Source of the DNA: Cyanobacteria bacterium FACHB-DQ100
GTDB lineage: Bacteria; Cyanobacteriota; Cyanobacteriia; Leptolyngbyales; Leptolyngbyaceae
Reading direction: 5' to 3'
DNA: 50,586 bases
Assembly (NCBI GenBank): GCA_014695195.1
Contig: JACJNW010000008.1
Span: 1 to 50,586 of the forward strand
Position 1 is the first letter of the stretch; every line of letters begins with the position of its first letter. A program made the translations under genes and the position numbers. Positions 1,295-36,051 of this stretch are shown one piece after another. Under the pieces are notes generated by a model. It searched no databases. It had not been told where the DNA came from and saw nothing but the letters and a program-made list of their open reading frames with translations.

Positions 1295-1642
1295 CTAGAG
1301 ATTATTCAATTGAAGAGACGACTGAGCCCGATCGACGGTAGAACCATCCAATGATGTGCCGTTTAGGTTAGATCCATCCAAGTTTGAACTAGAAGGCTCG
1401 TCAGATTGAAGAGACAGTTGGGTGTGATCGACGGTAGAACCATCCAATGATGTGCCGTTTAGGTTAGATCCATCCAAGTTTGAACTAGAAGGCTCGTCAG
1501 ATTGAAGAGACGGTTGGGTATGATCGACGGTAGAACCATCCAGTGATGTGCCATTTTGGGTGAGTCCGGCTTTTGCGATCGATGCAAAAGACAAAACACC
1601 CAGAGTTGTCAGGATAGCAACAGTGCAGAATTGACGCTTCAT
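1295..1642 (-). CDS. Small secreted Ser/Asp/Asn-rich tandem-repeat protein
   Basis: A 115-residue protein. Residues 1-25 form a clear signal peptide (KRQF then a hydrophobic core, ending SIAKA). The rest is almost entirely a 32-residue tandem repeat: two full units and a third of 21 residues. Each begins GTSLDGSTVDHTQ and ends DGSNLN. The mature protein is acidic, has no Cys, and carries regularly spaced Leu (SLDGS, NLDGS, NLNGT), the spacing seen in solenoid-like beta structures; that is inference. It starts with ATG, and AGGACAATT before it gives a plausible ribosome site. It has its own promoter of the shared type at 1706-1750 and is divergent from the response regulator at 1855. I do not recognise a characterised homologue. 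The link to that regulator is inferred from the shared promoter element. Confidence 0.7.
   Translation of the reverse strand: MKRQFCTVAILTTLGVLSFASIAKAGLTQNGTSLDGSTVDHTQPSLQSDEPSSSNLDGSNLNGTSLDGSTVDHTQLSLQSDEPSSSNLDGSNLNGTSLDGSTVDRAQSSLQLNNL
1298..1552 (-). repeat. 96-bp in-frame tandem repeat (2.66 units)
   Basis: Three consecutive units of 96, 96 and 63 bp (1457-1552, 1361-1456, 1298-1360) inside the secreted repeat protein. The two inner copies differ by only a few bases, so the expansion is recent. Unit length is a multiple of three, so copy-number change keeps the reading frame. Confidence 0.9.
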
Positions 1643-1705: not shown

Positions 1706-1750
1706 TTGATGTTTCTCAAGATAGAGAATAATCGGGGAGAACTAGAGGAG
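1706..1750 (-). promoter_or_regulatory. Shared-type promoter with tandem TCTCCCCGAT box (copy D)
   Basis: Read on the minus strand this 45-base segment aligns without gaps to four others in the window. It carries TTCTCCCCGAT, preceded 11 bases earlier by a weaker CTCCTCTAG half, then TATCTT at 1718-1723 as a candidate -10. It shares TCTCCTCTAGTTCT exactly with the copy before the lanthipeptide precursor. It lies 64 bases upstream of the repeat-protein start and in the gap shared with the divergent OmpR-type regulator. Promoter activity is inferred. Confidence 0.6.
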
Positions 1751-1854
1751 AAAAACTAATTTATGCCTGCTCGATTGTTGCGTTCTTGTAAGAATGCTTT
1801 AAGACGCGGGATGAATTACCTTACAATCGCTTTACGGCTAGGTGAGCGATAGAT

Positions 1855-3768
1855 ATGAGGGTTCTAGTAGTTGAAGATGATTTGATCGTGACAGACGCGA
1901 TTGCACGATCGCTGAGTGAACACCATTACGCAGTAGACACAGCAGAGGACGGCGCGATTGGGTGGGAATGCGTTGAGAGCACAACTTATGACCTGATCCT
2001 GATTGATGTGGGATTGCCTAAATTGGATGGGATCACGCTCTGCCAGAGAATTCGCGATCGCGGTTGTGGAACCCCAATCTTATTGATGACCGCCAAAGAT
2101 GACAGCACCTATCGGATTCGAGGCTTAGATTCAGGGGCAGATGACTATTTAGCAAAGCCATTCGACTTGGGAGAGCTTCAAGCCCGAGTTAGAGCCTTGT
2201 TGAGACGGGGAACGGTAGCAGCAAGCCCAGTTTTGACCATTGGAAAATTACAGCTCGATCCGCGATCGTGCCAAGTCACCTATGCTGAGAAACTACTGCC
2301 GCTGACACCGAAAGAGTATAGTTTGCTCGAATTGTTTCTACGCCATCCTAGTCGCGTTTTTAGCTGTGGAGACATTATCGAGCATCTTTGGACGTTTGAC
2401 GATCCACCCCAGGAAGAGAGCGTCAAATCCCACATCAAAGGATTGCGGCAGAAGCTAAAAGCAGGCGGTGCAGTCGATTGGATTGAGAACGTGTATGGGT
2501 TAGGATATCGATTGCGCGAAGGCATTGAAGCCAATCAGGAACAATCCGCACAGTCCTATGACAATCAGGTTGCACAGCTTTGGGAGCAGTATCGTGGGTT
2601 AATGGCAGAACGATTTGCGGTGCTGCAACAATCGGCCCATACTTACCCCTTACCAATTGAACTGCGAGAAGCAGCAGAACGCGCTGCTCATAAATTAGCG
2701 GGGGTTTTAGGGATGTTCGATCGAGATGAAGGAACACAGATTGCTCGACAGCTTGAAAAACAGTTTGAAGGACAAGCCGAATTACCAGCGGAAGAAGTGC
2801 GATCGCTGGTTCGACGCTTGGGTGATATTCTGAATCTTTCGGCTCCGGTCGAAACGAGTGGAAGCCCCCTAAATCTTCCAAAAATAGATGAGTTTGAATC
2901 TGAAGTCCCCCGCGATGGGAAAGATTCTAAATCATCTCTCCGCTCTTGGACGGTTCTGGCAGTCGATGATGATCCGATCGTTCTTGCCACCTTGAAACAG
3001 CTTCTTGAACCTTGGGGAATGTGCTTAACAGGAATCGATAATCCACTGCAATTTTGGACGGTTTTATCAGCGATCAATCCCGATCTGCTGATTCTGGATG
3101 TCGAAATGCCGCAGATGAATGGGGTTGCACTTTGTCAGGCGATTCGAGCAAATCCAGCTTGGCAAAGTTTACCGATCGTCTTTCTCACTGCTCATCAAGA
3201 TACTGCAACCGTTCAACAAATCTTTGCAGCCGGAGCCGATGACTATGTTGTCAAACCGATTGTTGGGCAAGAATTACTTTCACGGCTCACCCAACGGTTA
3301 GAACGATTGCGCCTGCTACAAACACTGAGCACCAAAGATTCGATTACCGGACTGGCAAATCAGTTTTATTCGAGTCAAGCGATCGAAGCTCAATTCCGCA
3401 ACCATCAAACAACTTACCTTGCAATTCTCTACATTCCCATGCTAAGACAAATCAACATTCAGCAGGGACACACGATTGGAAATCAGATTCTCAAGCAAAC
3501 TGGGCAATGCTTGCAAGCTAGTTTTTGTAACGGCGAAATTCTCGGCTATTGGAGAAACGGTGAATTTATAATTGCCAGTTCTCAAACCACAAAAGCAAAG
3601 TTTCATGAGCAGTTATCAGAAGTCATCGCAATGCTGCAACGACAACCGTTTGAAGCTCCGAATCTGATTTATCGTTCTGCCGTAGTGAACTATCCAACCG
3701 ATGGACTCACGCTACGATCGCTCTATCAAACTGCAAGTCTCTGCTTAGAAGGATCAATTCATGAGTGA
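1855..3768 (+). CDS. OmpR-type response regulator with HPt, second REC and degenerate GGDEF
   Basis: A 637-residue multi-domain regulator. REC1 occupies residues 1-115 (VEDD acidic pocket, phospho-acceptor Asp51 in LILIDVGLP, Lys in AKPFD). A winged-helix DNA-binding domain of the OmpR/PhoB type follows at about 128-222 (LTPKEYSLLELFL, VKSHIKGLRQKL, YGLGYRL). An HPt-like helical segment at about 235-325 has His279 in AAHKLAGVLG. REC2 lies at about 365-485 (VDDDP, Asp415 in LLILDVEMP, Lys in VVKPI). The C-terminus (500-637) has a GGDEF fold, but the signature is RNGEF instead of GGDEF, so cyclase activity is unlikely. One chain therefore combines DNA binding with phosphorelay parts. Its last 8 bases overlap the kinase start at 3761 (ATGAGTGA), implying coupled translation and a cognate pair. 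GGTGAG at 1841 can serve as ribosome site. Confidence 0.9.
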   Translation: MRVLVVEDDLIVTDAIARSLSEHHYAVDTAEDGAIGWECVESTTYDLILIDVGLPKLDGITLCQRIRDRGCGTPILLMTAKDDSTYRIRGLDSGADDYLAKPFDLGELQARVRALLRRGTVAASPVLTIGKLQLDPRSCQVTYAEKLLPLTPKEYSLLELFLRHPSRVFSCGDIIEHLWTFDDPPQEESVKSHIKGLRQKLKAGGAVDWIENVYGLGYRLREGIEANQEQSAQSYDNQVAQLWEQYRGLMAERFAVLQQSAHTYPLPIELREAAERAAHKLAGVLGMFDRDEGTQIARQLEKQFEGQAELPAEEVRSLVRRLGDILNLSAPVETSGSPLNLPKIDEFESEVPRDGKDSKSSLRSWTVLAVDDDPIVLATLKQLLEPWGMCLTGIDNPLQFWTVLSAINPDLLILDVEMPQMNGVALCQAIRANPAWQSLPIVFLTAHQDTATVQQIFAAGADDYVVKPIVGQELLSRLTQRLERLRLLQTLSTKDSITGLANQFYSSQAIEAQFRNHQTTYLAILYIPMLRQINIQQGHTIGNQILKQTGQCLQASFCNGEILGYWRNGEFIIASSQTTKAKFHEQLSEVIAMLQRQPFEAPNLIYRSAVVNYPTDGLTLRSLYQTASLCLEGSIHE

Positions 3769-6700
3769 AGCACTAACCCCTCAAGCTCAACACCTGCAAC
3801 GTGAAGACTTAATTACGGTTTTAGAAACCGCTGTGGATTTAATTGGTATTGCTGACGCAACAGGACGCACTCTCTATTTCAACCAGGCTGCACGTCGAGT
3901 ATTAGGATTTGGGGATACCGAAGACTTATCGCAAAAAACTATTTCAGAATATCATCCGCCCGAAGTCGCTAAAGTTTTGTTGGAAGAAGCTTTTCCGATC
4001 GCGCTTCGAGACGGAATCTGGGCTGGAGAAACAGTTCTTCTCACACGAGATCAACGAGAAATTTCAGCTTCTCAAATCATTGTCACGCACAAAAATCCAG
4101 ATGGATCGCTCAAATTTGTCTCCACGATTTTGCGAGATATCACCGAGCAGAAAGCCATTGAAGAACAACTGCGTCGTAGTAATGCTCTACTGAAAGCACA
4201 ACAAGAAGCGTCGATCGATGGCATCTTGGTGGCAGATGAACATCGCAATATCGTGGACTACAATCAAAAGTTTTGCGAAATCTGGCGACTGCCTCAGATT
4301 TTACCAACTCAAAATTCTCGGCGGGTTGCCGAAATGGTTGCAAATCAGCTTGAAGACTCAGACGCTTTTTTAGCACGCATCGAAGCGCTTTATCAAAACT
4401 TAGACGAAGTTCTTTACGATGAGCTTTCGTTGAAAGATGGGCGGACGATCGAACGTCACAGCAAAGCTGTCAAATCTTCTACTGGCGAGTACTATGGACG
4501 CATTACATTCTTTCGAGATATTAGCGATCGCAAACAAACCGAAGCGGCTTTGCAACGCAGCGAACAACACTTTCGCAACATTGTAGAAAACGCAAATGAT
4601 ATTTTATTTGTCAATACACCAGAGGGAATTTTTAGCTACGTTTCGCCAAACGTCATCAACGTCATGGGCTACTTGCCCGAAGAAATGATTGGGAAACCAT
4701 TCCCTCAATTTCTGCATCCTGACGATGCTGAACTGTGTTTTAAGCTGAACCAACAGATGGTCGAGACCCGTGAACCGCAAGCCGGGATTGAATGTCGATC
4801 TCTTTACAAAGACGGCAGTTACCGATGGCAAGTCGTCAACGTTGCACCGACTCTTGGAGTGGACGGAGAATTACAAATCATTGGCGTAGCGCGAGACATT
4901 CACGATCGTAAATTAACTGAAGAAGCCTTGCGTCTGAGTGAAGCGCGATATCGGGCTTTTGTGACGGCAACGGCTCAAGCTGTTTGGATGACCAACGCGG
5001 TCGGAGAAGTGGTCGAAGATATTCCGCTTTGGTGTGCGTTAACTGGACGCAGCCAAGCCAGCGCAAATGGATGGGGATGGCTCGAGAGCATTCACCCAGA
5101 CGATCGAGCAACGACCGCAGAAGTTTGGCTAGAAGCAGTTCGCTCTGGGAAAGTTTACGAAGTAGAGCAACGCATTCAAGTGGCATCCGGCGAGTATCGA
5201 TTGTTTTCAGTTCGGGGCGTGCCCATCCTCGATGAGCAAGGCAACATTCAAGAATGGATCGGAACCAAAACCGATATCACGGAACAAAAACAAGCTGAAG
5301 CAATATTGCTTCAGCAGAATGGGCTGTTGCAAGCTCAACAAAAAGCTTTACAGGAGAAAGAAGCACAATATCGCACGATCTTTGAGGCAATTACTGATGC
5401 CTTGTTCATCCTAGATCTTGACACAATCACTGTGGTCGAAGTGAACCCTGCTACTTGCCAAATGCATGGGTACTCATACGAGGAGTTTTTAACGTTACAT
5501 CCATCGGAGTATATTCATCCAGACAGTATATCGGTATTTCATAGCTTTCTCGAAGCAATGACCTTAAAGCAGCCGTTCTGTGGTGAAGCAGTTGATGTTC
5601 GCAAGGATGGCAGCCTGGTTGATGTTGAAGTTAAAGGAACCACTTGTTTTTACAATGGAAAACCGCATGTTTTAGCGATGGTGCGTGATATTAGCGATCG
5701 TAAAGGTGCCGAAAGAGCGCTGCAACGTCGAGCGAGGTTAGATCATTTACTCAGCTATCTTTCTCGGCAGTTTATTGACCAGGATGCAGAAACCGCGATT
5801 CATCTTGCTTTAGAATCGATCGCGCGTCATATTGGCGCAGAACGAGGCACAATCTTCGAGTACAACGCTGACCAGACGAGATGCCAATTAGTGTACGAAT
5901 GGTGTGGTGATGGAATTACGCCGCTCACTCCCGAAGCAAGAGTGTCGAGCGTGCCTGAGCATCCACATTTGCATCAGCACTTTTTATCGGGACAAGCCTT
6001 GCATACGGTTGATGTTCAGACGATGCCAGAAACACCAGAGCGAGAGCTATTTACCCGTCAGTCGATTCAATCGGTGCTGGGAGTTCCTGTGATCTATCGA
6101 GGGCAGGTGACTGGCTTTTTGGGAATAGACACGGTTCATTTTCAGAAAGATTGGGGCCAGGAAGATATCAACTGTCTTAAGCTTGTGAGCGAACTGATTG
6201 CGATCGGACGAGCAAGACACAAAGCCGAAACCGATTTACGCATTGCTAAGGAAGCGGCTGAGGCAGCAAATCTAGCAAAGAGTACATTCTTAGCTAACAT
6301 GAGCCATGAGTTACGCACACCCTTGAATGCAATTCTAGGCTTTTCGCAGCTGATCGAACGCGATGCTACCCTTCCTGATCGCCAACGCGATTCTCTTGCC
6401 ATTATCAATCGCAGTGGTGAACACTTGCTGAATTTAATCAATGATGTGTTAGAGATGTCAAAGATCGAAGCAGGACGAACAACCTTGAATGTAGTTTCTT
6501 TTGATCTGCATCATCTTTTACAGACGATACAAGAGATGTTCTTGATTCGAGCGAAAGCAAAGAAACTCGCGCTGAACTTTGCGATCGCGCCCAATCTGCC
6601 TCAGTACATTCAAACCGATGAAAACAAACTGCGCCAAGTCCTAATTAATTTGCTGAGCAATGCCCTGAAATTTACAGACAGTGGCAGCATTACGCTAGAA

Positions 6701-7636
6701 GCTACCGTGCAGTCAGAATTAACGCTGCAATTCAAAGTTCAAGATACGGGACAGGGAATTGCTCCAGAAGAATTTGAGCAGCTATTTCGCCCATTTATCC
6801 AAACCAGTAGCGGTTCTCAACTACGAGAAGGCACAGGGCTTGGATTAACCATTAGTCGCCGATTTGTGCGATTGATGGGCGGAGAGATGCACATTGAATC
6901 AACTGTGGGACAAGGATCAACGTTTTCCTTTGAAATTCAAATCGCGATCGCGAATCCGGCAGAAGTTGCACCTACCTCGACTTCAAAGCGAGTGCTGCAA
7001 CTAGCACCAGAGCAACCCCAATATCGAATTTTAGTCGTTGACGATCGCTCTGAGAATCGAGATTTCGTCGAGCAATTGTTAACAATGGTGGGATTTGAAA
7101 CCCAATCAGCCGTGAATGGAGAAGATGCGATCGCACAATGGCAGCAATGGCAACCTCACCTGATTTTGATGGATATGCGAATGCCGATCGTGAATGGTTA
7201 TGAGGCAACTCGGCAAATCCGGGTGCTTGAATCGGCTCAAACTCGACCTAAGATTCTGGCATTAACCGCCAGTGCCTTTGAAGAACAACGCGCTTCAGTT
7301 CTGGCGGCTGGCTGCGATGATTTTCTAGCAAAACCCTTTCGAGAAGCTCACTTATTTGAGAAACTCGCGAAGCATCTTGGGGTGAACTATCTGTATGAAG
7401 AAGATAACGAACATCCAATTGATTCATCGCCTGAGTTAACGTTAACTCGTGTAATGCTTGCGACAATGCCTCAAGATTGGATTGCACAACTGCATCAAGC
7501 CTCGCTTGCTGTCGATGCTGACCGAATCCTGCAATTGGTTCAGCAAATCCCAGAGACGAATCAACGAGTTGCGATCGCACTAACGGAGTTAGTTCAAAAG
7601 TTTTGTTTTGACGAAATTACTGAGCTTTCTCAATAA
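3761..7636 (+). CDS. Five-PAS, GAF hybrid sensor histidine kinase
   Basis: A 1291-residue sensor kinase with no membrane segment, so probably cytosolic. In order it has PAS domains near residues 14-130, 142-262, 266-385, 392-512 and 534-655, several ending in the DITEQK or DISDRK linker typical of PAC motifs. A GAF domain follows at about 660-815, then HisKA with His848 in [15 protein letters not shown], HATPase at about 950-1075 (NLLSNALKFTDSG, DTGQGIAP, GTGLGLTISRRF), and a receiver at about 1087-1205 (LVVDDR, Asp about 1136 in LILMDMRMP, Lys in LAKPF). The last 70 residues are a helical tail often found on cyanobacterial hybrid kinases. The start overlaps the regulator gene by 8 bases, so the HPt in that regulator is a natural acceptor for the receiver here (inference). 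The ligand sensed is unknown. Confidence 0.93.
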   Translation: MSEALTPQAQHLQREDLITVLETAVDLIGIADATGRTLYFNQAARRVLGFGDTEDLSQKTISEYHPPEVAKVLLEEAFPIALRDGIWAGETVLLTRDQREISASQIIVTHKNPDGSLKFVSTILRDITEQKAIEEQLRRSNALLKAQQEASIDGILVADEHRNIVDYNQKFCEIWRLPQILPTQNSRRVAEMVANQLEDSDAFLARIEALYQNLDEVLYDELSLKDGRTIERHSKAVKSSTGEYYGRITFFRDISDRKQTEAALQRSEQHFRNIVENANDILFVNTPEGIFSYVSPNVINVMGYLPEEMIGKPFPQFLHPDDAELCFKLNQQMVETREPQAGIECRSLYKDGSYRWQVVNVAPTLGVDGELQIIGVARDIHDRKLTEEALRLSEARYRAFVTATAQAVWMTNAVGEVVEDIPLWCALTGRSQASANGWGWLESIHPDDRATTAEVWLEAVRSGKVYEVEQRIQVASGEYRLFSVRGVPILDEQGNIQEWIGTKTDITEQKQAEAILLQQNGLLQAQQKALQEKEAQYRTIFEAITDALFILDLDTITVVEVNPATCQMHGYSYEEFLTLHPSEYIHPDSISVFHSFLEAMTLKQPFCGEAVDVRKDGSLVDVEVKGTTCFYNGKPHVLAMVRDISDRKGAERALQRRARLDHLLSYLSRQFIDQDAETAIHLALESIARHIGAERGTIFEYNADQTRCQLVYEWCGDGITPLTPEARVSSVPEHPHLHQHFLSGQALHTVDVQTMPETPERELFTRQSIQSVLGVPVIYRGQVTGFLGIDTVHFQKDWGQEDINCLKLVSELIAIGRARHKAETDLRIAKEAAEAANLAKSTFLANMSHELRTPLNAILGFSQLIERDATLPDRQRDSLAIINRSGEHLLNLINDVLEMSKIEAGRTTLNVVSFDLHHLLQTIQEMFLIRAKAKKLALNFAIAPNLPQYIQTDENKLRQVLINLLSNALKFTDSGSITLEATVQSELTLQFKVQDTGQGIAPEEFEQLFRPFIQTSSGSQLREGTGLGLTISRRFVRLMGGEMHIESTVGQGSTFSFEIQIAIANPAEVAPTSTSKRVLQLAPEQPQYRILVVDDRSENRDFVEQLLTMVGFETQSAVNGEDAIAQWQQWQPHLILMDMRMPIVNGYEATRQIRVLESAQTRPKILALTASAFEEQRASVLAAGCDDFLAKPFREAHLFEKLAKHLGVNYLYEEDNEHPIDSSPELTLTRVMLATMPQDWIAQLHQASLAVDADRILQLVQQIPETNQRVAIALTELVQKFCFDEITELSQ

Positions 7637-7672
7637 ACTATCTCGATCGCAACCATCCAGCCGATGTTCTTC

Positions 7673-7953
7673 CTAACGAGATTCAGCACGATAAACTGTT
7701 TCAACAGTTTTGTCGTAGAGTTGATTGATTTGTTGAAAGAGTGGATTGTTAGGATCGATCGCGGATTTGCAATCTGAAATTTCTTCAACGGTCTGTTTAA
7801 TAAGGAAGCGGTACAACGTTAAGGATCTTTAATCGGTTCAGCCTTGGTGCTTTGAATCAGAGAGAGTGCTGTGACGGACTGAACCGAGGTTGAAACTACA
7901 CCGCCGAAGAGTAGCAAACTGATAGTCGCTCGAAGGAAAAGAGAAGCATTCAT
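7673..7953 (-). pseudogene. Frameshifted small secreted protein gene
   Basis: On the minus strand an ATG at 7953 opens MNASLFLRATISLLLFGGVV, a good signal peptide, and reads to AEPIKDP and a stop near 7820. In the next frame, directly adjoining, an equally gene-like stretch runs LYRFLIKQTVEEISDCKSA, then FQQINQLYDKTVETVYRAES, to a TAG at 7673-7675. The total span of 281 bases is one short of 94 codons, so a single missing base around 7820-7826 explains both halves. The intact product would be about 93 residues, exported, with one Cys after the signal peptide. This may be a real frameshift or one sequencing error. I do not recognise the family. It sits convergently behind the kinase at 3761-7636. 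Confidence 0.55.
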
Positions 7954-8013
7954 AATGATTGAATCTGTGGCGATGGATTCAGTGTAGCGATCGCACTCCG
8001 ATTCATTCGGCTA

Positions 8014-8115
8014 ATACCAGATTGATTTGTGGATGCGACAGATTCTCGCCCCCTAAATCCCCCAGAATGGGGGACTTTGAGTATGATCTGTCGCATTCTA
8101 TGTTTAATTCGGTAT
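8014..8115. repeat. 102-bp inverted-repeat element, CCCCCTAAATCCCCC type (copy 1)
   Basis: Imperfect terminal inverted repeats (ATACC...GATGCGACAG against CTGTCGCATTC...GGTAT) flank a central hairpin CCCCCTAAATCCCCCAGAAT followed by GGGGGACTTTGA. A second copy of exactly the same length is at 25255-25356, and a truncated one at 39721-39801. Short size, no coding capacity and inverted ends are the hallmarks of a MITE-like element. The 7637-8208 gap otherwise holds only the frameshifted small gene and no other feature I can support. Confidence 0.75.
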
Positions 8116-8208
8116 AAGTTGCAGAAATTGCAACATCGACCTAAAAAATGAATGCTAGGACGGTGTTCTAGCATTCATGTCTATGCTGCACAGGTTTAAA
8201 CGTAAGGG

Positions 8209-8733
8209 TTAAGCACTCCGCCAGCGACGAGCGAATTCAGTTAAAGTAGCCGTCGAAATTTGGGTTTGCAGCCAATCTAAAGCGCGGGTTTGATGCGGCT
8301 TTTCAGTCGGATTGTAAGCATCGAACATCTTCCACAAGTAGCGTTGATCGACTAATTTTCTGAGAGTTGCCCAAGTGAGGTTGCCCACAATGCCATCTGT
8401 GGTTAAAGCATTGTTGCGCTGGAACTGGATCACGGCTGCCTGTGTTTTCGCACCAAAACTACCATCGACAAGCAGCTTCGCTCCGGTTTTATTTAATAAT
8501 TGTTGCAAATCGTAGACGGCTGCACCTGTGCTATTGAGTCGTAGCACTGGATCAGGAGAAACGGCTTGATTTTCCCACCGTTGAGTGAAGGCGCGAAAAG
8601 TCGGATAGGACAGTTGGGTTTCTAACCAGTTGACAGCTCCGGATTGATGCTGGTATTTGAACGGCTCGAAATAGCGGCAAACTGCTTTGAGATCGATCGC
8701 AGAGGCTTGTAAGTTCACTTGAGTTGATTCCAT
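8209..8733 (-). CDS. Peptidoglycan-binding domain protein with duplicated flanking modules
   Basis: A 174-residue protein taken from the ATG at 8733, which has AGGAAG eight bases upstream. The longer open frame from 8787 would place that site inside the gene. The centre (about residues 70-135) is a PG_binding_1 domain: VLRLNSTGAAVYDLQQLL, VDGSFGAKTQAAVIQFQ, DGIVGNLTWATL. On each side is a related helical module: QSGAVNWLETQLSYPTFRAF before and RALDWLQTQISTATLTEFAR after, each ending with a conserved RW pair. No signal peptide is evident, so how it would reach the wall is unclear. It is the last gene of the minus-strand run 11517 to 8209. The binding role follows from the family; the flanking modules are not recognised. 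Confidence 0.8.
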   Translation of the reverse strand: MESTQVNLQASAIDLKAVCRYFEPFKYQHQSGAVNWLETQLSYPTFRAFTQRWENQAVSPDPVLRLNSTGAAVYDLQQLLNKTGAKLLVDGSFGAKTQAAVIQFQRNNALTTDGIVGNLTWATLRKLVDQRYLWKMFDAYNPTEKPHQTRALDWLQTQISTATLTEFARRWRSA

Positions 8734-8793
8734 GATTTGCTTCCTTGGTGTTGTACACCGGATAGTTGAGTGAATGTGAAAGGACAATAGCGG

Positions 8794-9993: not shown

Positions 9994-10020
9994 AGCGATT
10001 TTTAAGAGAGTGCAGAAGGC

Positions 10021-11025
10021 TTACCGTTTTACTGCTTCAATGATGCTAAGCATTGAGGGTGTTGGGATTACGCGCGTAAGTTCAAAGCCGTTTGATCGTA
10101 ACAACGATCGATACTCTGCTTCAGTGCGTTCCCGTCCGCCCGTCATCAACAGCATAATCACGTCAATGAGTTTTACTGGAGCAGGTTCATTTCCGGGTGG
10201 AATAATGCCTTCAACCAGCAGCAGCTTGCTCTGATCGCTCATCGCGCGATGACAATTTCTCAGAATGATCGAGGACTTTTCATCGTCCCAATCATGAATG
10301 ATCCATCGCATCAGGTAAGCATCGCCCCCCGTTGGCACAGACTCAAAGAAGTTTCCGGCAACGGGTTGAATATTCTCATCTACACTGACAGTCGCAATGA
10401 TTTCGGACAGATCAAATAAGATGCCTTTGAGGTGAGGATGTGAGCGCAAAATCGCCGAAATCAAACTTCCTTGCGCTCCACCCACATCGACGATCGTTCT
10501 AAATTCAGAAAAGTCATAGCTTGCAGCGACCGCTTCGGCGATCGCAGTCCCCATACTGGTCATCGATTGCGAGAATACCCTCCCCGCCTCAGGATGTTGA
10601 GCATAGTAATCCCAGACCGGCATTCCTGCTGCGGCATCAAACGCAACCTCGCCCGTTTTCAGGCTGTGCAACCCGTTGCTCCAGCCTAAAGAATGGTCAT
10701 CTCCCATCTGTGCCATTGCAGCATATCGCATTGAGCCAGGACTATCGCTCTTGAGTGTTGCACCCAACGGAGTCAGTGCAAAACATTGATCCGAAACTTC
10801 GGTAAAGATGCCGACACTGGCCAAGGCGCGTAGGAGTCGGTAGAGCGATCGCGGATCAGTCTGTGTTCCTGCTGCAAGTTGAGCAATCGTTTTCGGCTGA
10901 TCATCAAACAAATCCGCAACGCCTAACTTTGCAGCAAGATGAATCGATCGAGCAACCCAAAAGCCACCGATCAAACTCAGCATTGTCTCTTGCGGAGCAA
11001 CTTCTACTCTTTCCATCGTCATCAT
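10021..11025 (-). CDS. SAM-dependent O-methyltransferase (Methyltransf_2 family)
   Basis: A 334-residue protein of the class II small-molecule O-methyltransferase family. An N-terminal dimerisation/winged-helix part (AAKLGVADLFDDQPKTIAQL, SLYRLLRALASVGIF) is followed by the SAM-binding fold: motif I reads DVGGAQGSL, where most members have DVGGGxG. LFDLSEI matches the acidic loop, and MRWIIHDWDDEKS carries the general-base His and the conserved acidic pair. Length and order are normal. The usual substrates are phenols, hydroxyindoles or polyketide hydroxyls; here the substrate is unknown. It follows the VOC gene by 24 bases and uses GGAGCG before the ATG. Being under the same promoter type as the lanthipeptide genes hints at a shared physiological programme, but a tailoring role is only a possibility. 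Confidence 0.85.
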   Translation of the reverse strand: MMTMERVEVAPQETMLSLIGGFWVARSIHLAAKLGVADLFDDQPKTIAQLAAGTQTDPRSLYRLLRALASVGIFTEVSDQCFALTPLGATLKSDSPGSMRYAAMAQMGDDHSLGWSNGLHSLKTGEVAFDAAAGMPVWDYYAQHPEAGRVFSQSMTSMGTAIAEAVAASYDFSEFRTIVDVGGAQGSLISAILRSHPHLKGILFDLSEIIATVSVDENIQPVAGNFFESVPTGGDAYLMRWIIHDWDDEKSSIILRNCHRAMSDQSKLLLVEGIIPPGNEPAPVKLIDVIMLLMTGGRERTEAEYRSLLRSNGFELTRVIPTPSMLSIIEAVKR

Positions 11026-11049
11026 GATTCTTTTCGCTCCAGTTAATTC

Positions 11050-11517
11050 CTAAGCTTCAACAAGTTGGGACGCAGCCTGATTCAGGAATGCCTCATAGCT
11101 AGCAGCGAATTGTAGGTATTCCTTTGCCATTTCGGGAGTGAGCAATTCGAGCATAAATTTGTTTTCTACCCAAAATTCCATCACTTTAAAGGGACCGCGA
11201 TCGCACAATCGCACCAGCCATCCTTCGCGATCAGCGATTTGTGTAATCTGTGCTTGCGAGACCGTGACCGAAAGAGCAGCATGAACAGACGTAAAGGTTT
11301 GAGCATTTCCTGAAGAGAAGCCAACTTGGTCTAGCTCTGGAGTCAATTGAGTATCAGCCGGATAAAGCTCGATTCCGGTTCCGAAGCCATCATCGACGAT
11401 AACGATATAGCTTCCTTCATGAGGAGGGAAGGGAAAACAACGACCCTGCAACACTTCTGCTAGAACATTAGCAACATGCAACGGATGATTCACAGCGATT
11501 GAAATGTGATGAAACAT
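11050..11517 (-). CDS. VOC (glyoxalase-fold) superfamily protein
   Basis: A 155-residue protein beginning MFHHISIAVNHPLHVANVLA, the typical opening of vicinal-oxygen-chelate proteins in which an N-terminal His on the first strand can bind a metal. A second acidic ligand is plausible in GTGIELYPAD and another in FWVENKFMLELLTPE near the C-terminus. The VOC family covers dioxygenases, isomerases and resistance proteins, so the reaction cannot be named. It is the first gene of the minus-strand operon. AGAGG precedes the ATG, and a promoter of the shared type lies 24 bases upstream (11541-11585), giving a short leader of about 30 bases. Confidence 0.75.
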   Translation of the reverse strand: MFHHISIAVNHPLHVANVLAEVLQGRCFPFPPHEGSYIVIVDDGFGTGIELYPADTQLTPELDQVGFSSGNAQTFTSVHAALSVTVSQAQITQIADREGWLVRLCDRGPFKVMEFWVENKFMLELLTPEMAKEYLQFAASYEAFLNQAASQLVEA

Positions 11518-11540
11518 AGTAACCTCTTACTTCTGGTTTA

Positions 11541-11585
11541 CTGATGTCTCTTACAGTAGGCAACGATCGAGGAGAAGTCGGGGAA
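11541..11585 (-). promoter_or_regulatory. Shared-type promoter with tandem TCCCCGA boxes (copy A)
   Basis: On the minus strand it reads TTCCCCGACTTCTCCTCGAT, two boxes 11 bases apart, then TACTGT at 11553-11558 as candidate -10. A third box, TTTCCCCGATT, lies 32 bases further upstream (about 11606-11616), close to three helical turns, so a second binding site on the same face is possible. It drives the VOC, methyltransferase-like, secreted and peptidoglycan-binding genes. Confidence 0.6.
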
Positions 11586-11631
11586 TTTTCAACTCGTTTC
11601 GTTCATGAATCGGGGAAATCCGTTTTTTTGC

Positions 11632-11660
11632 TGAGATTACTTTAGAGACTGGTAATCTCA
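11632..11660. promoter_or_regulatory. Perfect 9-bp inverted repeat upstream of REC-PAS kinase
   Basis: TGAGATTAC and GTAATCTCA are separated by 11 bases, 38 bases before the kinase start at 11698. No T-run follows on either strand in the right place for a terminator (seven Ts precede it at 11623-11629). An operator or a leader hairpin fits better than a terminator. No regulator can be assigned. Confidence 0.4.
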
Positions 11661-11697
11661 CCTTAAGATCTAGTGAGAGTTCCAATGAAATTCTGCA

Positions 11698-13197
11698 ATG
11701 CCTGAGCCTACACCAAAAGCCGACATTCTAGTCATTGACGATACGCCGGAAAATCTCAATCTGTTATCAACCCTGCTGATTGAACACGGCTACAAGGTTC
11801 GCAGCGTTACGAAGGGTTCGACGGGCATTCGAGGCGCTCAAGTAATGCCGCCGGATTTAATTCTGCTCGATGTGAATATGCCGCAGATGAGCGGATACGA
11901 AGTTTGCCAACATCTTAAATCCGACGATCGTACCCGTGATATTCCCATCATTTTTATCAGTGCTTTAGAAGCCGTGAGCGACAAAGTAAAGGCGTTTCAA
12001 GCAGGCGGTGTCGATTACATTACAAAACCGTTTCAGATCGAAGAAGTCTTGGCTCGAATTGAAACCCATCTCACGTTGAGACGACTTCAGAATCAACTGC
12101 AATCTCAAAACGAACAACTTCAGCAAGAAATTCGCGAACGCTTGCGCGTCGAAGACGAACGCAAACACGCAGAGGAAAAATTTGCCACCATTTTTCAACA
12201 AAGCCCTAATCCGATCGCGATCGTGACCGTTCCTGAAGGGCAATTAATTGAAGTAAATCCTAGCTTTCTCAGCATTAGTGGTTACACACGAGATCAAGTC
12301 ATCGGCAGTTCGATTACAAAGCTACATTTAGGTCACGATTCAGCCACTTTTCTGCGTCGTCTTCAAACCACAGAAACCTTTCATAACTTAGAATTTGAAC
12401 TGCTTACCCACTCCGGCAATGTTAAAAGTATTTTGCTATCCTTCGATCGCATTGAACTAAATGGAACAACTTGCGCTTTACTGATTGCAAACGACATCAC
12501 CGAGCGTAAACGTCTCGAAAACGAATTTATTTCCTTAGTTAGCCATGAGCTACGCACTCCTTTAACCTCAATGATGGGAGCGCTTGATTTACTCAGTAGT
12601 GGACAGTTAGGCAGCTTGACTGAGCAAGGGCAGCAAGTTCTTAATATCGGCATAAAAAATGCAGAACGCTTGATCCGGTTAATCAATGACATTCTCGACC
12701 TCGAACGGATTCGCTCTGGCAAAATTACGATGAATCGGCGATCGTGCAATCTCGCTGACTTGATGACTCAGGCAACTGAAGAAATGCAAGCAATGGCGGA
12801 TCGCTCTGAGATTCAATTGAGTACAGAACCAATGTCGATTTTGCTCAATGCTGATCCCGATCGCATTGTGCAAACCTTGACCAATCTTCTGAGTAATGCA
12901 ATTAAGTTCTCATCTGCCCAAACAACAGTTCAGATGCGGGCTTGCAGTTCAGATCACGCTTCAAGTGTCTGTATTAGTGTTTGCGACCAAGGGCGAGGCA
13001 TTCCCTCCCACCAGATCCAGACTATCTTTGAGCGATTTCAGCAGGTAGATGCCTCGGATGCTCGTCAAAAAGGCGGAACCGGACTTGGACTTGCCATTTG
13101 TCGTAATATCATCGAGCAGCATGGGGGCAGAATTTGGGTAGAAAGCACCGAGAACCAGGGCAGCACATTCTATATTGAATTGCCGCTTGACATTTAA
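11698..13197 (+). CDS. REC-PAS sensor histidine kinase
   Basis: A 499-residue kinase. A receiver opens the protein (residues 5-125: VIDDTP, Asp58 in LILLDVNMP, Lys in ITKPF). A coiled coil follows at about 128-160 (LQNQLQSQNEQLQQEIRERL), then a PAS domain at about 165-275 ending DITERK. HisKA carries His283 in [15 protein letters not shown], and HATPase shows NLLSNAIKFSS, CDQGRGIP and GTGLGLAICRNI. Having an N-terminal receiver means another kinase controls it. No membrane segments are seen. The gene is 76 bases before the lone receiver at 13274, which has its own shared-type promoter in between. The two probably form a pair, and they sit directly upstream of the lanthipeptide genes. Confidence 0.92.
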   Translation: MPEPTPKADILVIDDTPENLNLLSTLLIEHGYKVRSVTKGSTGIRGAQVMPPDLILLDVNMPQMSGYEVCQHLKSDDRTRDIPIIFISALEAVSDKVKAFQAGGVDYITKPFQIEEVLARIETHLTLRRLQNQLQSQNEQLQQEIRERLRVEDERKHAEEKFATIFQQSPNPIAIVTVPEGQLIEVNPSFLSISGYTRDQVIGSSITKLHLGHDSATFLRRLQTTETFHNLEFELLTHSGNVKSILLSFDRIELNGTTCALLIANDITERKRLENEFISLVSHELRTPLTSMMGALDLLSSGQLGSLTEQGQQVLNIGIKNAERLIRLINDILDLERIRSGKITMNRRSCNLADLMTQATEEMQAMADRSEIQLSTEPMSILLNADPDRIVQTLTNLLSNAIKFSSAQTTVQMRACSSDHASSVCISVCDQGRGIPSHQIQTIFERFQQVDASDARQKGGTGLGLAICRNIIEQHGGRIWVESTENQGSTFYIELPLDI

Positions 13198-13212
13198 TTA
13201 ATTCAACCGTGT

Positions 13213-13257
13213 TTCCCCGACTTCTCCCCGATTCAGCGATACCTTATAAGCATTAGG
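13213..13257 (+). promoter_or_regulatory. Shared-type promoter with tandem TCCCCGA boxes (copy B)
   Basis: The clearest copy: TTCCCCGACTTCTCCCCGAT gives two boxes at 11-base spacing, then TACCTT at 13240-13245 (overlapping TATAAG) as candidate -10. It ends 16 bases before the receiver gene, whose ribosome site AGAGGA starts at 13262. Confidence 0.65.
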
Positions 13258-13273
13258 TTGTTAGAGGATTGCG

Positions 13274-13648
13274 ATGCATAAGCAAATTTTGATTGTGGAT
13301 GACGAAGAAGATGTGCGAGCGATCGCAACACTCGGTCTCCAAATGGGAGCGGGCTGGGAAGTTCTCACTGCTAGCTCCGGAGCACAAGGAATTGCGATCG
13401 CAGCTCAACATCACCCCGATGCAATTCTGCTCGATCTGATGATGCCGAATATGGACGGTCGCGCCACTTTACAGCACCTCAAGCAACAACCTGAAACTCA
13501 ATCCATTCCTGTAATTCTAATGACCGCTAAAGTGCAAGCCTCAGAGCAGCACAATCTCTATGATTTAGACGTTGCAGCTATTTTTACGAAACCCTTTCGT
13601 CCGCTTACCCTTGCCCAACAGATTATTGATGCTTTGACTTGGCGCTAA
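13274..13648 (+). CDS. Single-domain response regulator
   Basis: A 124-residue stand-alone receiver with every catalytic position present: DDEED near the N-terminus, phospho-acceptor Asp54 in AILLDLMMP, Thr in ILMTAK, and Lys in IFTKPF. There is no output domain, so it acts by protein contact or as a phosphate shuttle. It lies just after the REC-PAS kinase, carries its own shared-type promoter, and is followed by a strong terminator at 13676-13720. It is therefore a separate transcription unit directly before lanM. Partner choice (the kinase at 11698 or the relay at 1855-7636) cannot be told from sequence. Confidence 0.9.
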   Translation: MHKQILIVDDEEDVRAIATLGLQMGAGWEVLTASSGAQGIAIAAQHHPDAILLDLMMPNMDGRATLQHLKQQPETQSIPVILMTAKVQASEQHNLYDLDVAAIFTKPFRPLTLAQQIIDALTWR

Positions 13649-13675
13649 GTCGTTTGAGTACCTTCGCATACTAAC

Positions 13676-13720
13676 AGCCCGGTTTCGAGATCAGTCCGAA
13701 ACGACGGGCTTTGTCTGTTT
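13676..13720 (+). terminator. Rho-independent terminator after receiver gene
   Basis: The stem AGCCCG plus GTTTCG pairs with CGAAAC plus CGGGCT (two unpaired bases on the 3' arm) and is followed by TTTGTCTGTTT. It separates the receiver from lanM. Confidence 0.7.
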
Positions 13721-13755
13721 AGCCCCAAATTTCAGTCATCACGACCCTAACCAAT

Positions 13756-13800
13756 CACCCCGATTTCTCCCTGATCTAGCGCTAATCTGTCAGCATTTAC
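13756..13800 (+). promoter_or_regulatory. Shared-type promoter (copy C) for lanM
   Basis: CACCCCGATTTCTCCCTGAT gives two boxes 11 bases apart, then TAATCT at 13783-13788 as candidate -10. The lanM ribosome site AAGGAG (13807-13812) and the ATG (13820) follow at normal distances. Confidence 0.6.
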
Positions 13801-13819
13801 TTTCTCAAGGAGTACTGTA

Positions 13820-16800
13820 ATGAACCATGCTGACTTCATGCAAATTGCATTTCAAGCAAGCTCTTTATGGGAGCAATTCAATCATCATTGGGGGCAACCT
13901 TCCCTAGACCATCAAACTCAGCAGACCGATGCAATTTTACAACGGTGGTGTGAAACTGCCGCTCAAGGGAATTGGGAAAAGTTTGAGAAACGGTTAGCGT
14001 GGGATGGGTTAGACAGCGCAACTGTAAAGGCTGTTTTGGCAGCATCCACAATCAATCCAAAGGACGAACCAGCAAACCCTTTACCTAACTCCGGCTGGAT
14101 AGAAACACTCCAGGCGATCGTCCGAATGGCTTTAGAACAAAGCTTGAACGATCGTAAAACCATCGCACTTCCTATAGAGCCAGAAAAACCGCTCCCGTTT
14201 GAAGATATTTTGCTCCCTGTTCTTTTAGCTGCTCGTCAAAAGCTATGGGCACAGATAAACCCAACCGCCATGCAGGTTCTATCCGAAGGTGCTTATCTTC
14301 AGATAGAACGCCAATTTTTGCAACAACTAATCGCACTTTGCACTCCTACCTTGGATGCTGAGTTTTCGCGCTTTCGTCCACTCGGACAGACCTTACTGAA
14401 TCGATTCATCACGCCTCAAGAACAGCTCAGTACAACTTATTACCGTGCCTTTGTTGAAAAGCAGTTATCAGATGGACTGCTCACTCTGTTCCAAACCTAC
14501 CCTGTTTTAGGGAGATTGATTGCGACAACGGTTGATTTTTGGGTGAGTGCGATCGCGGATTTTCTTCAGCACCTCAATACCGATTGGGCTGATTTGCAAC
14601 ATACCTTCGCAGATTCAGCACCCCTCAGACAAGTGACGCAAGTGGAATCGTCGCTTTCTGATGCCCACCATCAAATGCGAACAGTGATCGCGCTGACCTT
14701 TGATTCAGGATTAAAACTAATCTATAAACCGAGAGATCTAGGATTGGAAGTTGCCTATCAACACCTCCTCGCTTGGTGCAATGAACAGAGTGAATTACTT
14801 CCGTTCAGAGTGTTGCGCGTTCTCGATCGCACCACTCATGGTTGGGTCGAATATGTAGAGCAGTTACCGTGTCAGGACGAACTTGCTGCCCAGCGTTTTT
14901 ATCAGCGATCGGGAATGTTGCTCTGTCTGCTCTATGTCTTACGAACGACCGATTGTCACTATGGTAATTTGATCGCGAGCGGAGAGCATCTCGTTTTAGT
15001 TGACATGGAAGCATTGATGCATCCTACTGCTGATCCCTTGGTTGAAAGCTGGAACTCAACCAATGCTCAGAATGGCAGTGATCAACGGTTTTGGGATTCG
15101 GTGCTGCGAACAGGACTTTTGCCTCAGTGGGAACTCAATAAGCAAAATCGAGTTGCCTTTGATATTAGCGGTTTGGGCAGTGTTGATCCTCAACAAGCAC
15201 CACGAAAGATGCCTTGCTGGAAAGCAATTAATACCGATGATATGCGGCTAGTATATGAATCCGTGACCTTGCCGCTAGAAGCAAATGTGCCAGTTTTAAA
15301 TGGGACACCGCTCTCCCCTAACAATTATCTTCCCCAATTGCTCGAAGGGTTTGAGGAAATGTATCGTTTCTTGCTACAGCAACGCGCATCATTGCTGGAT
15401 AGTGATTCGCCTTTAAGCAACTTAAAGCACCAACGGGTAAGATTTGTCTTCCGCGCGACTCAAATTTACGATGCGATTAAGCAAAAGTCGCTATCTCCTC
15501 AGTTTCTCCGCAACGGCATCGATCGTAGTATTGAACTAGATGTTCTTAGCCGTGCTTTTTTAGTATCACCGACTAAGCCAAAAGCATGGGCGATTCTACA
15601 GGCAGAACGGAAATCATTAGAACAGCTTGATATTCCCCATTTTGAAGTAAGAGCAGAAGACGTTGCGTTAATGTCGGGTTCGCAAACTGTTGTAGAACAA
15701 TACTTTCAGCATTCTAGCTTTAGCGAGGTAGAAGCGCAGCTTCAGCAACTGAGTGAGGGTGATCTAGCGCGGCAAGTAACATTGATTCGGGGTGCCTTTT
15801 GTGCGCGAATTGCCCGTGTTCCAAACCGCGATCGCACGTCTCCGATCCAGACGATCAACAATATTGCATCTCCTACGGCTGAATTGTTTTTACGCGAGGC
15901 AGAAGCGATCGCAGCGGAAATCGAGAATGCTGCGCTGCTCGAACCAGATGGCAGTGCCAGTTGGATTGCCCTAACCTATTTGCCTGAAGTCGAGCGATTC
16001 CAGTTCCGTCCTCTGGGAGACACACTGTACGATGGCAGGAGCGGAATTGCCTTATTTTTGGCGGCAATGAGTATGATAACAGGACGATCGCGGTATCGTT
16101 CCTTGGCACTCAGCGCACTAGGATCTCTGCGATCGTGGATGCATCATTCCGATATTGAGCTTTCTCAAAAAGTCGCAAACAGCTTGGGAATCGGTGGCGC
16201 AACAGGTTTAGGGTCTTTGATCTACGCCTTAGTTCGGATCAATCAATTCTTGCAAGAACCGACGCTGTTAGAAGATGCAGAGCGGATTGCGCGCTATATC
16301 ACTCCAGAACTGATCGCAACAGATCATCAACTAGACATTCTTGGAGGTGCGGCGGGTGCAATTTTGGGATTGCTCACACTATACGAGGTCAGTAGCGATC
16401 CGAAAGTCTTAGCAGCAGCAGAATACTGTGGTCATCACCTCCTCACGCATCAAGTTAGCATCAATGACTTGCCTAAAAGCTGGAAAACAATTAGTGAAAC
16501 ACCGCTGACTGGCTTTTCTCATGGAGCAGCAGGCATCGCCTATGCTCTGCTAAGGCTTTATCGCGTCACCCGAAATCGCTGCTATTTTGAGGCTGCCCAA
16601 GAAGGGATAGCCTACGAGCGGCATCACTTCTCCGCACAGGTGAGAAATTGGGCAGATCTGCGGCACAAGCAGCCCAACTTCATGACGAGTTGGTGTCATG
16701 GCGCTCCAGGAATTGGATTGGCTCGGATGGGAAGCTTATTGATGCTAGAAACCGATTCAGAACGGAATGAGGCACAGCAAGAGATTAGAATTGCACTAGA

Positions 16801-17095
16801 AACGACAATGAACTATCCACAGGCGATCGATCATCTTTGCTGTGGCAATTTTGGTCGAGTTGAGGCACTATTGCTAGCTGAACAACTTGATGCCCGATCA
16901 GGCTGGAAAGAGAAAGCTAAGCAACAGGCAGCTTGGACAATCTCAAAATCAGAGCAAGCTGGCGGATATCAGCTATTTTTAGATTTGCCAACGATGTTTA
17001 ATCCTGGTTTCTTCCAGGGAACGGCTGGGATTGGCTACCAGTTGTTGCGCTTAGCGAATCCAGAAGCATTGCCATCAGCGCTACTGTGGCACTGA
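13820..17095 (+). CDS. lanM: Class II lanthipeptide synthetase LanM, CCG type
   Basis: A 1091-residue bifunctional enzyme that dehydrates Ser/Thr in a precursor peptide and adds Cys thiols to form lanthionine rings. The N-terminal dehydratase has the lipid-kinase-like active site: Lys303 in LIYKPRD, Asp378, His380 and Asn383 in TTDCHYGN, and Asp395 and Glu397 in VDMEAL; the 17-residue spacing between the two Asp residues matches known LanMs. The C-terminal LanC-like cyclase has the catalytic His901 in FSHGAAG and zinc ligands Cys959 (SWCHGAPG) and Cys1007-Cys1008 (LCCGN). The CCG triplet instead of CHG marks the three-Cys zinc group that includes the promiscuous ProcM of marine cyanobacteria. 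The gene has its own promoter (13756-13800), AAGGAG before the ATG, and its own terminator. The two precursors at 17352 and 17763 are the evident substrates. Confidence 0.95.
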   Translation: MNHADFMQIAFQASSLWEQFNHHWGQPSLDHQTQQTDAILQRWCETAAQGNWEKFEKRLAWDGLDSATVKAVLAASTINPKDEPANPLPNSGWIETLQAIVRMALEQSLNDRKTIALPIEPEKPLPFEDILLPVLLAARQKLWAQINPTAMQVLSEGAYLQIERQFLQQLIALCTPTLDAEFSRFRPLGQTLLNRFITPQEQLSTTYYRAFVEKQLSDGLLTLFQTYPVLGRLIATTVDFWVSAIADFLQHLNTDWADLQHTFADSAPLRQVTQVESSLSDAHHQMRTVIALTFDSGLKLIYKPRDLGLEVAYQHLLAWCNEQSELLPFRVLRVLDRTTHGWVEYVEQLPCQDELAAQRFYQRSGMLLCLLYVLRTTDCHYGNLIASGEHLVLVDMEALMHPTADPLVESWNSTNAQNGSDQRFWDSVLRTGLLPQWELNKQNRVAFDISGLGSVDPQQAPRKMPCWKAINTDDMRLVYESVTLPLEANVPVLNGTPLSPNNYLPQLLEGFEEMYRFLLQQRASLLDSDSPLSNLKHQRVRFVFRATQIYDAIKQKSLSPQFLRNGIDRSIELDVLSRAFLVSPTKPKAWAILQAERKSLEQLDIPHFEVRAEDVALMSGSQTVVEQYFQHSSFSEVEAQLQQLSEGDLARQVTLIRGAFCARIARVPNRDRTSPIQTINNIASPTAELFLREAEAIAAEIENAALLEPDGSASWIALTYLPEVERFQFRPLGDTLYDGRSGIALFLAAMSMITGRSRYRSLALSALGSLRSWMHHSDIELSQKVANSLGIGGATGLGSLIYALVRINQFLQEPTLLEDAERIARYITPELIATDHQLDILGGAAGAILGLLTLYEVSSDPKVLAAAEYCGHHLLTHQVSINDLPKSWKTISETPLTGFSHGAAGIAYALLRLYRVTRNRCYFEAAQEGIAYERHHFSAQVRNWADLRHKQPNFMTSWCHGAPGIGLARMGSLLMLETDSERNEAQQEIRIALETTMNYPQAIDHLCCGNFGRVEALLLAEQLDARSGWKEKAKQQAAWTISKSEQAGGYQLFLDLPTMFNPGFFQGTAGIGYQLLRLANPEALPSALLWH

Positions 17096-17123
17096 ACTCA
17101 ACCAAGTAGCATTTCTTCAAATG

Positions 17124-17153
17124 ACCCGAATAGCAAAGCTATTCGGGTTTTCT
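17124..17153 (+). terminator. Rho-independent terminator after lanM
   Basis: An 11-base perfect stem ACCCGAATAGC / GCTATTCGGGT with an AAA loop is followed by TTTCTATT. It uncouples lanM from the precursor genes, which then start from their own promoter. Confidence 0.88.
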
Positions 17154-17215
17154 ATTGCAGTAGTGCTTTCGGGGCTTATTGCCTCCCCCAGAACTACTCT
17201 TTTTAACTGAATTAT

Positions 17216-17260
17216 CTCCTCTAGTTCTTCCCTTTCCTTCTCTATTGTTAAAAGCATCGA
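17216..17260 (+). promoter_or_regulatory. Shared-type promoter (copy E) for lanthipeptide precursors
   Basis: It aligns without gaps to the other four copies and is closest to copy D (TCTCCTCTAGTTCT identical). The inner box is weaker (TTCTTCCCTTT). TATTGT at 17243-17248 is the candidate -10, giving a leader of about 95 bases before the first precursor. Confidence 0.5.
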
Positions 17261-19202: not shown

Positions 19203-19212
19203 GCTTCAATCT

Positions 19213-35330: not shown

Positions 35331-35475
35331 CTCGGAGTGATAACGCAAGCAGAAGCAGACTTGCAGACTTAATGCGATCGGCAGAATCGGCGCGATTCGA
35401 TGGTATTTAGGTCAATGCTTTTACACTGCCGGAATATCAAGGAAATGGTGCAGCATTCGCAAGCGATTTCTCGCC
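35331..35475 (+). pseudogene. Remnant duplicate of the fadE 3' end
   Basis: This stretch is clearly homologous to about 34299-34433 of fadE: GTGATnACGCAAGCAGAAGC, CGATTCGATG, CCGGAATATCA and AAATGGnGCAGCATTCGCAA are shared. It differs by an 8-bp tandem duplication of GCAGACTT that shifts frame, an in-frame TAG and many point changes. Just downstream, 35474-35553 reads as a short hydrophobic peptide without a start (NLQIVGVAVLGIVLHLV), possibly another coding scrap. The rest of the 35104-35658 gap shows no gene. Confidence 0.8.
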
Positions 35476-35922: not shown

Positions 35923-36051
35923 AAGGCTGGCGATATCGAATAGCAGACTTCTGACATCAGATTTCTGACATAAGGGGGATGAAGAAAGTGAGCCTAGTTG
36001 CGAATGATTAAACGGCTACCGTTTGAATTCACCTCCCAGGCTCTTTGCTGA

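Follow-up and report, generated by a model that had tools for sequence, protein, structure and literature searches.

The Pho box of Escherichia coli consists of two 11-nt direct repeats that are bound in tandem, head to tail (PMC4415409), and residue V197 of PhoB, one of four that contact bases (PMC3264566), touches thymines in both half-sites (PMC3973317). The OmpR-family regulators listed for Synechocystis have 224-262 aa (PMC4361706). A different conserved class of promoter element in filamentous cyanobacteria is the J-box of SigJ from Nostoc punctiforme (PMC6495340), with the consensus GGGAATACT (PMC11407516), and the available text of a report on lanthipeptide clusters notes regulators near some of them, no more (PMC10783134). 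Here we describe an 11-bp direct repeat followed by a -10 sequence in a 50,586-nt stretch of Cyanobacteria bacterium FACHB-DQ100 (contig JACJNW010000008.1), the whole of which is called the window below. In all likelihood its five copies in the window are operators of one two-component regulon, read by the response regulator encoded at 1855. The sites and the signalling genes around them are as follows (G numbers denote genomes, G000 being the own genome of 5.5 Mb, and L numbers loci in them).

1706..1750, minus strand: predicted operator/promoter before the secreted repeat protein 1295-1642, divergent from regulator 1855
11541..11585, minus strand: predicted operator/promoter before the VOC gene 11050-11517, 35 bp from the 32-bp site to the ATG
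13213..13257, plus strand: predicted operator/promoter between kinase 11698-13197 and receiver gene 13274, 28 bp to the ATG
13756..13800, plus strand: predicted operator/promoter before lanM 13820, 31 bp to the ATG, also in G004 and G037
17216..17260, plus strand: predicted operator/promoter before the Nif11 precursor 17352, 103 bp to the ATG, second half-site degenerate
1855..3768, plus strand: proposed reader, response regulator REC-wHTH(Trans_reg_C)-Hpt-REC-GGDEF, recognition helix SVKSHIKGLRQKLK, Ser192
3761..7636, plus strand: hybrid histidine kinase (PAS repeats-GAF-HisKA-HATPase-REC), proposed cognate kinase, overlapping the end of the regulator gene by eight bases
11698..13197, plus strand: REC-PAS-HisKA-HATPase kinase, second signalling protein of the set
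13274..13648, plus strand: single-domain receiver, predicted target of site 13213, with homologues behind the site in C-box and T-box genomes

Regulator 1855 has the receiver and winged-helix Trans_reg_C domain of the OmpR/PhoB family, and its presumed operator is of the same type, with direct repeats about 11 bp apart that occupy the -35 place at a fixed distance from the -10 (27 bases in the five segments). PhoB is the nearest solved relative of its DNA-binding domain (3t72, 1qqi, 1gxp; E ~1e-14), but 1855 has extra Hpt, REC and degenerate GGDEF domains, its recognition helix is SVKSHIKGLRQ compared with TVDVHIRRLRK in PhoB, and the box is TCCCC (C-type) or TTCCC (T-type) compared with CTGTCAT in the Pho box. 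The system does not look like a Pho regulon, since the box differs and the own-genome targets scanned included no phosphate genes; a T-type target of another genome (L204 in G025) that weakly matches a PhoD-like phosphatase (30.2 bits, cut-off 27) is a point against excluding a phosphate link. RpaB/HLR1, SphR, CcaR and ManR share the DNA-binding fold family of 1855, which differs from the 224-262-aa Synechocystis regulators in its 637 aa and internal phosphorelay. Because its GGDEF signature is RNGEF (GNGEF, ENGEF or GEGEF in five relatives compared), and not the GG[DE]EF of active diguanylate cyclases, 1855 is probably not a cyclase. The initial annotation had called 1855 the only OmpR/PhoB-type regulator of the stretch, which holds among the 24 window proteins scanned with Pfam, a scan that left out several open reading frames (ORFs) including one of 1944 aa at 43498. 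The SigJ J-box is an extended -10, whereas the element here is a tandem upstream repeat, and identity with it was ruled out by the absence of GGGAATACT from the five segments on inspection. The far-red regulator RfpB and other cyanobacterial systems were likewise set aside, none having this box or architecture in the literature listings. The box string CCCCTAGTTCTCC did not occur in the literature searched, and no description of this regulon appeared among the literature listings, subscription journals being mostly outside the coverage of both; among the matches listed for TTCTCCCCGA there were only unrelated subjects, and the other box-string search gave one unrelated match.

The five 45-bp segments had been put forward in the initial annotation, and their coordinates, strands and gap-free alignment proved correct. 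All five share a direct repeat with an 11-bp period and then TAnnnT 27 bases from the start, with TA in columns 28-29 and T in column 33 of every aligned segment. With up to 3 mismatches, TCCCCGANTTCTCCCCGAT matched the window four times, every match being one of the segments, compared with a mean of 0.02 in shuffled sequence; none of 100 shuffles reached four matches. The element shared by the five segments is far above chance. The second half of segment 17216 is poor (TTCCCTTTC) and this segment was missed by the TCCCCGANTTCTCCCCGAT pattern and by the genome patterns, but it is conserved at the equivalent position in two relatives (L104 in G004; L109 in G037). A position weight matrix (PWM) built from the five segments gave them 46-55 bits, the best other position in the window reaching 10 bits, and in leave-one-out tests each omitted segment ranked 5th, directly after the four training segments.

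Outside ~45 bp the flanks of the five segments appear unrelated to each other, and therefore they do not belong to a longer dispersed repeat. Together with conservation centred on the site, this ruled out a dispersed repeat or miniature inverted-repeat transposable element. At the VOC promoter (10 sequences) identity was 0.91 within the site, 0.81 immediately behind it and 0.60-0.61 in the far flanks; at the receiver promoter, where the 13 sequences cover both box types and include four T-box genomes, it was 0.86 within the site and 0.53-0.62 in the flanks. The 32-bp site of 1706..1750 lies 105 bp from the start codon of 1855 and is also found at the orthologous place in G004 (L103) and G007 (L105). 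Among 110 unique sites scoring >28 bits in the fetched regions, 22 coincide with an ORF of 120 aa or more, compared with 79% of random positions; the sites lie mostly outside ORFs. TAnnnT stands at the same columns in the C and T site classes, the sites having been picked by a PWM that includes those columns. Behind the -10 and outside the PWM, A36 (0.68 in C-type, 0.63 in T-type sites) and A40 (0.59, 0.62) are weakly conserved, and CAT at columns 39-41 is mainly C-type; all three lie about where transcription should start. A near-identical pair on the minus strand of the window (34369-34413 and 35411-35455), ~1 kb apart, is perhaps a tandem duplication.

Scanning the own and related genomes, as the initial annotation had proposed, gave matches that far outnumber those of reversed patterns, which served as controls. 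The strict pattern TCCCCKANTTCTCCYCGATTN6TANNNT with up to 3 mismatches, which misses segment 17216, matched the own genome 10 times with 0 reversed controls, one match (G000:C6:33166) being of another kind. Over eight same-genus genomes it gave 31 matches with 1 control (10 in G000, 4 in G001, 10 in G004, 7 in G007 and none in the other four). With the C and T forms joined in one combined pattern and at most 2 mismatches, there were 67 matches in 12 of the 42 family genomes with one control match and, class-wide, 141 matches in 51 of 291 genomes with 5 control matches; these counts are independent of the PWM, the pattern having been written after the family sites were seen. The 141 matches span families beyond that of the window and include repeats of a second regulator family described below. 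The 3-mismatch matches G000:C6:33166, G004:C102 and G007:C75 (a TACCC triple repeat) were rejected as another class, and four matches of a first, loose pattern were dropped as targets, L011-L013 having no box by eye and L010 being the TACCC repeat. The element is widespread in cyanobacteria.

It occurs in two forms, TCCCC-N-CTCC and TTCCC-N-CTTC, whose varying bases (columns 2 and 13) hold equivalent places in the two half-sites. Although the search pattern allowed either base at each column, the two agreed in 136 of the 141 class-wide matches (CC 44, TT 92, CT 3, TC 2; Fisher 2e-30 with sites taken as independent), as would be expected of a homodimer reading both halves. Manual reading of the match table showed that six of the 42 family genomes have C at both columns with TA at the -10 (G000, G001, G004, G007, G027 and G037), and the same six are those with a full-length regulator at least 68% identical to 1855.

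Linkage to this regulator was then examined with regulators found by protein search alone, without reference to sites. Of the 13 close homologues (identity of 62% or more across the N-terminal 225 aa), 9 had a site in the 450 bp upstream, compared with 0 of 40 more distant paralogues (Fisher 1.6e-7), and in all nine the site was divergent from the regulator. Seven more regulators were reached via sites, six with a divergent site and one (G292) with a site on the same strand. In all ten C-type stretches examined, the regulator has a homologue of kinase 3761 next to it (L100, L103, L105, L106, L107, L109, L150, L151, L152 and L277, the last, in G150, with 36% identity), and eight of the ten carry homologues of kinase 11698 and receiver 13274 on the same stretch; the receiver promoter of L103 (G004) is on another contig, and the kinase 11698 homologue of L106 is partial. 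The regulator of the T-type genome G033 (L110) is followed by a kinase with 57% identity to 11698 and a receiver with 66% identity to 13274. A further stretch (L305, G004:C160:1-5000) has kinase and receiver homologues and T-type boxes with only a C-terminal fragment of the regulator, apparently a T-type cluster remnant in a genome whose boxes are otherwise C-type.

Within clade R, the clade of 1855, all 11 C-box regulators have Ser at residue 192 of the recognition helix and all 9 T-box regulators have Ala there, box type being taken from the adjacent site or, for G037, G027, G133 and G188, from other sites of the genome. S192 aligns with PhoB V197 in a sequence alignment, and an Ala facing a thymine methyl and a Ser facing a cytosine would fit the two boxes. 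Operator specificity thus tracks the recognition helix, as a correlation. Judged from clade-R linkage, covariation with the helix residue and the position of sites upstream of genes, the earlier proposal of an OmpR/PhoB-type operator gains support, and 1855 is very probably its reader, being the best-supported candidate.

The TACCC repeat of the own genome (G000:C6:33166-33197; L095:4167-4198) stands behind the stop codon of a paralogue of ~230 aa, and this observation pointed to the second family. There, 11-bp repeats (NNCCCGATTTC) in two or three copies are linked to ~230-aa OmpR-type paralogues; they lie at most ~165 bp behind the gene in G000, G007, G019, G021, G023, G029, G198, G233 and G256, and begin ~400 bp past the regulator in G060.

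Second-family loci: L037, L082, L076, L075, L078, L238, L239, L240, L299 and L290-L293

The residue in question is Ser with TACCC or TCCCC, Thr with TCCCC or CCCCC, and Ala with TTCCC (G060). Ala had been predicted beforehand near the TTCCC repeats of G053, G281 and G291 and was seen in 3 of 3, the G053 regulator being cut by the stretch end; outside the prediction, G137 also has Ala near TTCCC repeats, and G233, with TCCCC repeats, has Ser. The fetched stretches of five further T-repeat regions (G183, G135, G217, G204 and G103) contained no regulator homologue. The switch of this family was placed apart from that of clade R, giving two separate box/residue switches on a tree of 22 sequences (G053 left out). 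A substrate-binding-protein gene comes next in some of these genomes (Bmp/PnrA-like in L240, others by eye), and no obvious gene follows the repeats in the own genome.

Several observations weigh against reading the segments as operators of 1855 with a one-residue code. No site was found in the 450 bp upstream of the close regulators of G037 and G027 or within the ~210 bp covered upstream of those of G133 and G188, the clade-R regulator of G118 is ~1.5 kb from the site, and no clade-R regulator was found in six genomes with T-type sites (G032, G171, G212, G221, G102 and G148). The protein searches scored only 4 or 29 candidates per genome and missed regulators beside sites in G024 and G025, and therefore the absence of a regulator is weak evidence both ways. 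Columns 34, 68, 69, 103 and 171 also separate the box groups of clade R, so that six columns and not 192 alone split them; the C group is one branch of the clade-R tree, making the switch a single event and its counts not independent; and Ala at 192 occurs too in paralogues without a site. Mixed halves are present in 5 of the 141 sites, several of the second-family repeats among these 141 have no TA at the -10, and the second-family repeats of G281, G291, G053 and G137 lie 2.1-2.7 kb from the regulator. As for the counts, part of the sites counted had already served to train the PWMs, the first loose pattern, being noisier, gave 13 own-genome matches with 2 reversed controls, and a looser T-form pattern with up to 3 mismatches gave 9 control matches in the 42 genomes, T-form patterns at this tolerance being judged too noisy for counts.

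Another OmpR/PhoB paralogue, distant or ~230-aa, might read the repeat and 1855 be a mere neighbour or target. Many paralogues exist in the own genome (17 matches), and the related repeats after or near genes of the ~230-aa family indicate that related domains may read related boxes. However, the sites follow clade R and not the other paralogues, the repeats beside the own-genome ~230-aa paralogue are TACCC, unlike TCCCC, and four same-genus genomes with other paralogues but without clade R (G002, G003, G005 and G006) gave no matches by the strict or combined pattern, a looser pattern giving four 3-mismatch matches there compared with two controls; we consider this explanation improbable. The conserved block could also be the -35 element of an alternative sigma or extracytoplasmic function (ECF)-type promoter that needs no activator, which its fixed distance from TAnnnT in the -35 place would allow, but the joint base switch of half-sites 11 bp apart and a box base that follows the helix residue of the winged helix-turn-helix (wHTH) domain in two regulator families, along with the missing J-box, leave this scarcely credible. 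Finally, 1855 may be a repressor whose boxes block polymerase, as the repeat overlaps the -35 region and some response regulators repress from such places; the spacing resembles that of activator-dependent promoters and the -35 region is itself taken up by the repeat, and repression is unlikely.

The preferred reading remains activation by 1855. The repeat, the -10, the placement before genes, the linkage to the regulator and the covariation of half-site and helix residue 192 are all visible in the sequences, and we infer binding by 1855, its phosphorylation, activation and not repression, the transcription start and a signal. Regulator 1855 would be activated by a phosphorelay that most likely comes from hybrid kinase 3761 and may also involve kinase 11698 and receiver 13274. 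Two 1855 subunits would then bind head to tail on the direct repeat at about -38 to -20, replace the -35 and bring RNA polymerase carrying an ordinary sigma factor to the TAnnnT -10. Targets in the window would be the receiver, the VOC/methyltransferase operon, the lanthipeptide synthetase and precursor, and the secreted repeat protein; elsewhere in the genome they would include FeeM, another Nif11-like gene, a small GG-containing peptide and others. The receiver gene is a predicted target in both box types, which suggests feedback.

The remaining genes of the window are listed below.

1295..1642, minus strand: secreted repeat protein with a weak pentapeptide match, predicted target of site 1706
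8209..8787, minus strand: PG_binding_1 protein (Pfam) at the end of the VOC/methyltransferase run
10021..11025, minus strand: O-methyltransferase (Pfam), next gene in the VOC run
11050..11517, minus strand: VOC-like protein, first gene of the putative target operon, named in the initial annotation and without a Pfam match
13820..17095, plus strand: LanM class II lanthipeptide synthetase (DUF4135 and LANC_like), predicted target of site 13756
17352..17657, plus strand: Nif11-leader lanthipeptide precursor with a double-Gly site, predicted target of site 17216
17763..18068, plus strand: second Nif11 precursor, core peptide identical to that of the first
19138..21396, plus strand: C39-peptidase ABC transporter

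LanM with dehydratase and LanC parts, a precursor with a double-Gly leader and a C39 transporter make up a class II lanthipeptide cluster, and the transporter probably serves the lanthipeptide. Nif11-leader class II lanthipeptides of the prochlorosin type share the Nif11 leader, double-Gly site, LanM and C39 transporter, whereas here synthetase and precursor carry a defined shared operator. The sites before lanM 13820 and precursor 17352 support the suggestion that the regulon includes a lanthipeptide. A clear site stands only at the first (17352-17657) of the two precursors with identical cores.

The regulon extends beyond the window. Other own-genome sites precede a 79-aa peptide with a GG motif, the N-acyl amino acid synthase FeeM, a protein with a CarboxypepD_reg domain, a Coq4-like protein, and a 293-aa protein with a signal-like start that lies beside a fragment of a second regulator. 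A Nif11 precursor-like gene behind a site (G000:C20 ~35750-35936; L099:7700-7937) has an early stop in its leader, and two sites 45 bp apart (L096:5220-5296) precede a protein whose N-terminus resembles that of repeat protein 1295-1642. Own-genome targets named by Pfam or sequence are LanM, the Nif11 precursors, FeeM and the methyltransferase run with its terminal PG_binding_1 protein. Proteins resembling the latter by eye have a site of their own in G024, G025, G032, G150, G162 and G221, and the one in G024 (L197) is PG_binding_1 in Pfam; further Pfam assignments in other genomes are a protein kinase (L199), an RTX repeat protein (L275) and a glyoxalase/VOC protein (L187). Four small target proteins (L244, L254, L260 and L182) had no Pfam family, and L254 and L260 have a double-glycine-like end by eye. 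Proteins of ~95-125 aa with an EP-x-W/R...W-x-YDP-type region, also seen by eye, recur as T-type targets (L178, L179, L182, L195, L203 and L211). Though mixed, the target set suggests secreted peptides, small molecules and the cell surface.

The regulon is of the known OmpR/PhoB type, and its interest lies in the way in which box and helix residue vary in step in two families and in the tie to lanthipeptides. We tentatively propose, as a possible wider reading, a widespread and undescribed OmpR/PhoB-type operator family with a one-residue code, in which at the PhoB-V197 position Ala reads T and Ser or Thr reads C or A, with the same base in both half-sites. The code would have switched at least two times, once per paralogue family, with the boxes changing along, in clade R across a whole regulon, and clade R may be a dedicated programme for secreted peptides and surface products (lanthipeptides, double-glycine peptides, N-acyl amino acids and repeat proteins) under one phosphorelay. 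To our knowledge, little is known about what turns on cyanobacterial lanthipeptide genes, and the present analysis offers a concrete candidate regulator, operator and target list. The motif predicts targets from sequence alone, among them small secreted peptides that belong to no Pfam family. The joint change of box and helix residue in two families makes these regulators a natural experiment on how the specificity of a response regulator shifts along with that of all its binding sites, and in the cyanobacteria examined this covariation links the genes for lanthipeptides and other secreted products to a single signalling system.

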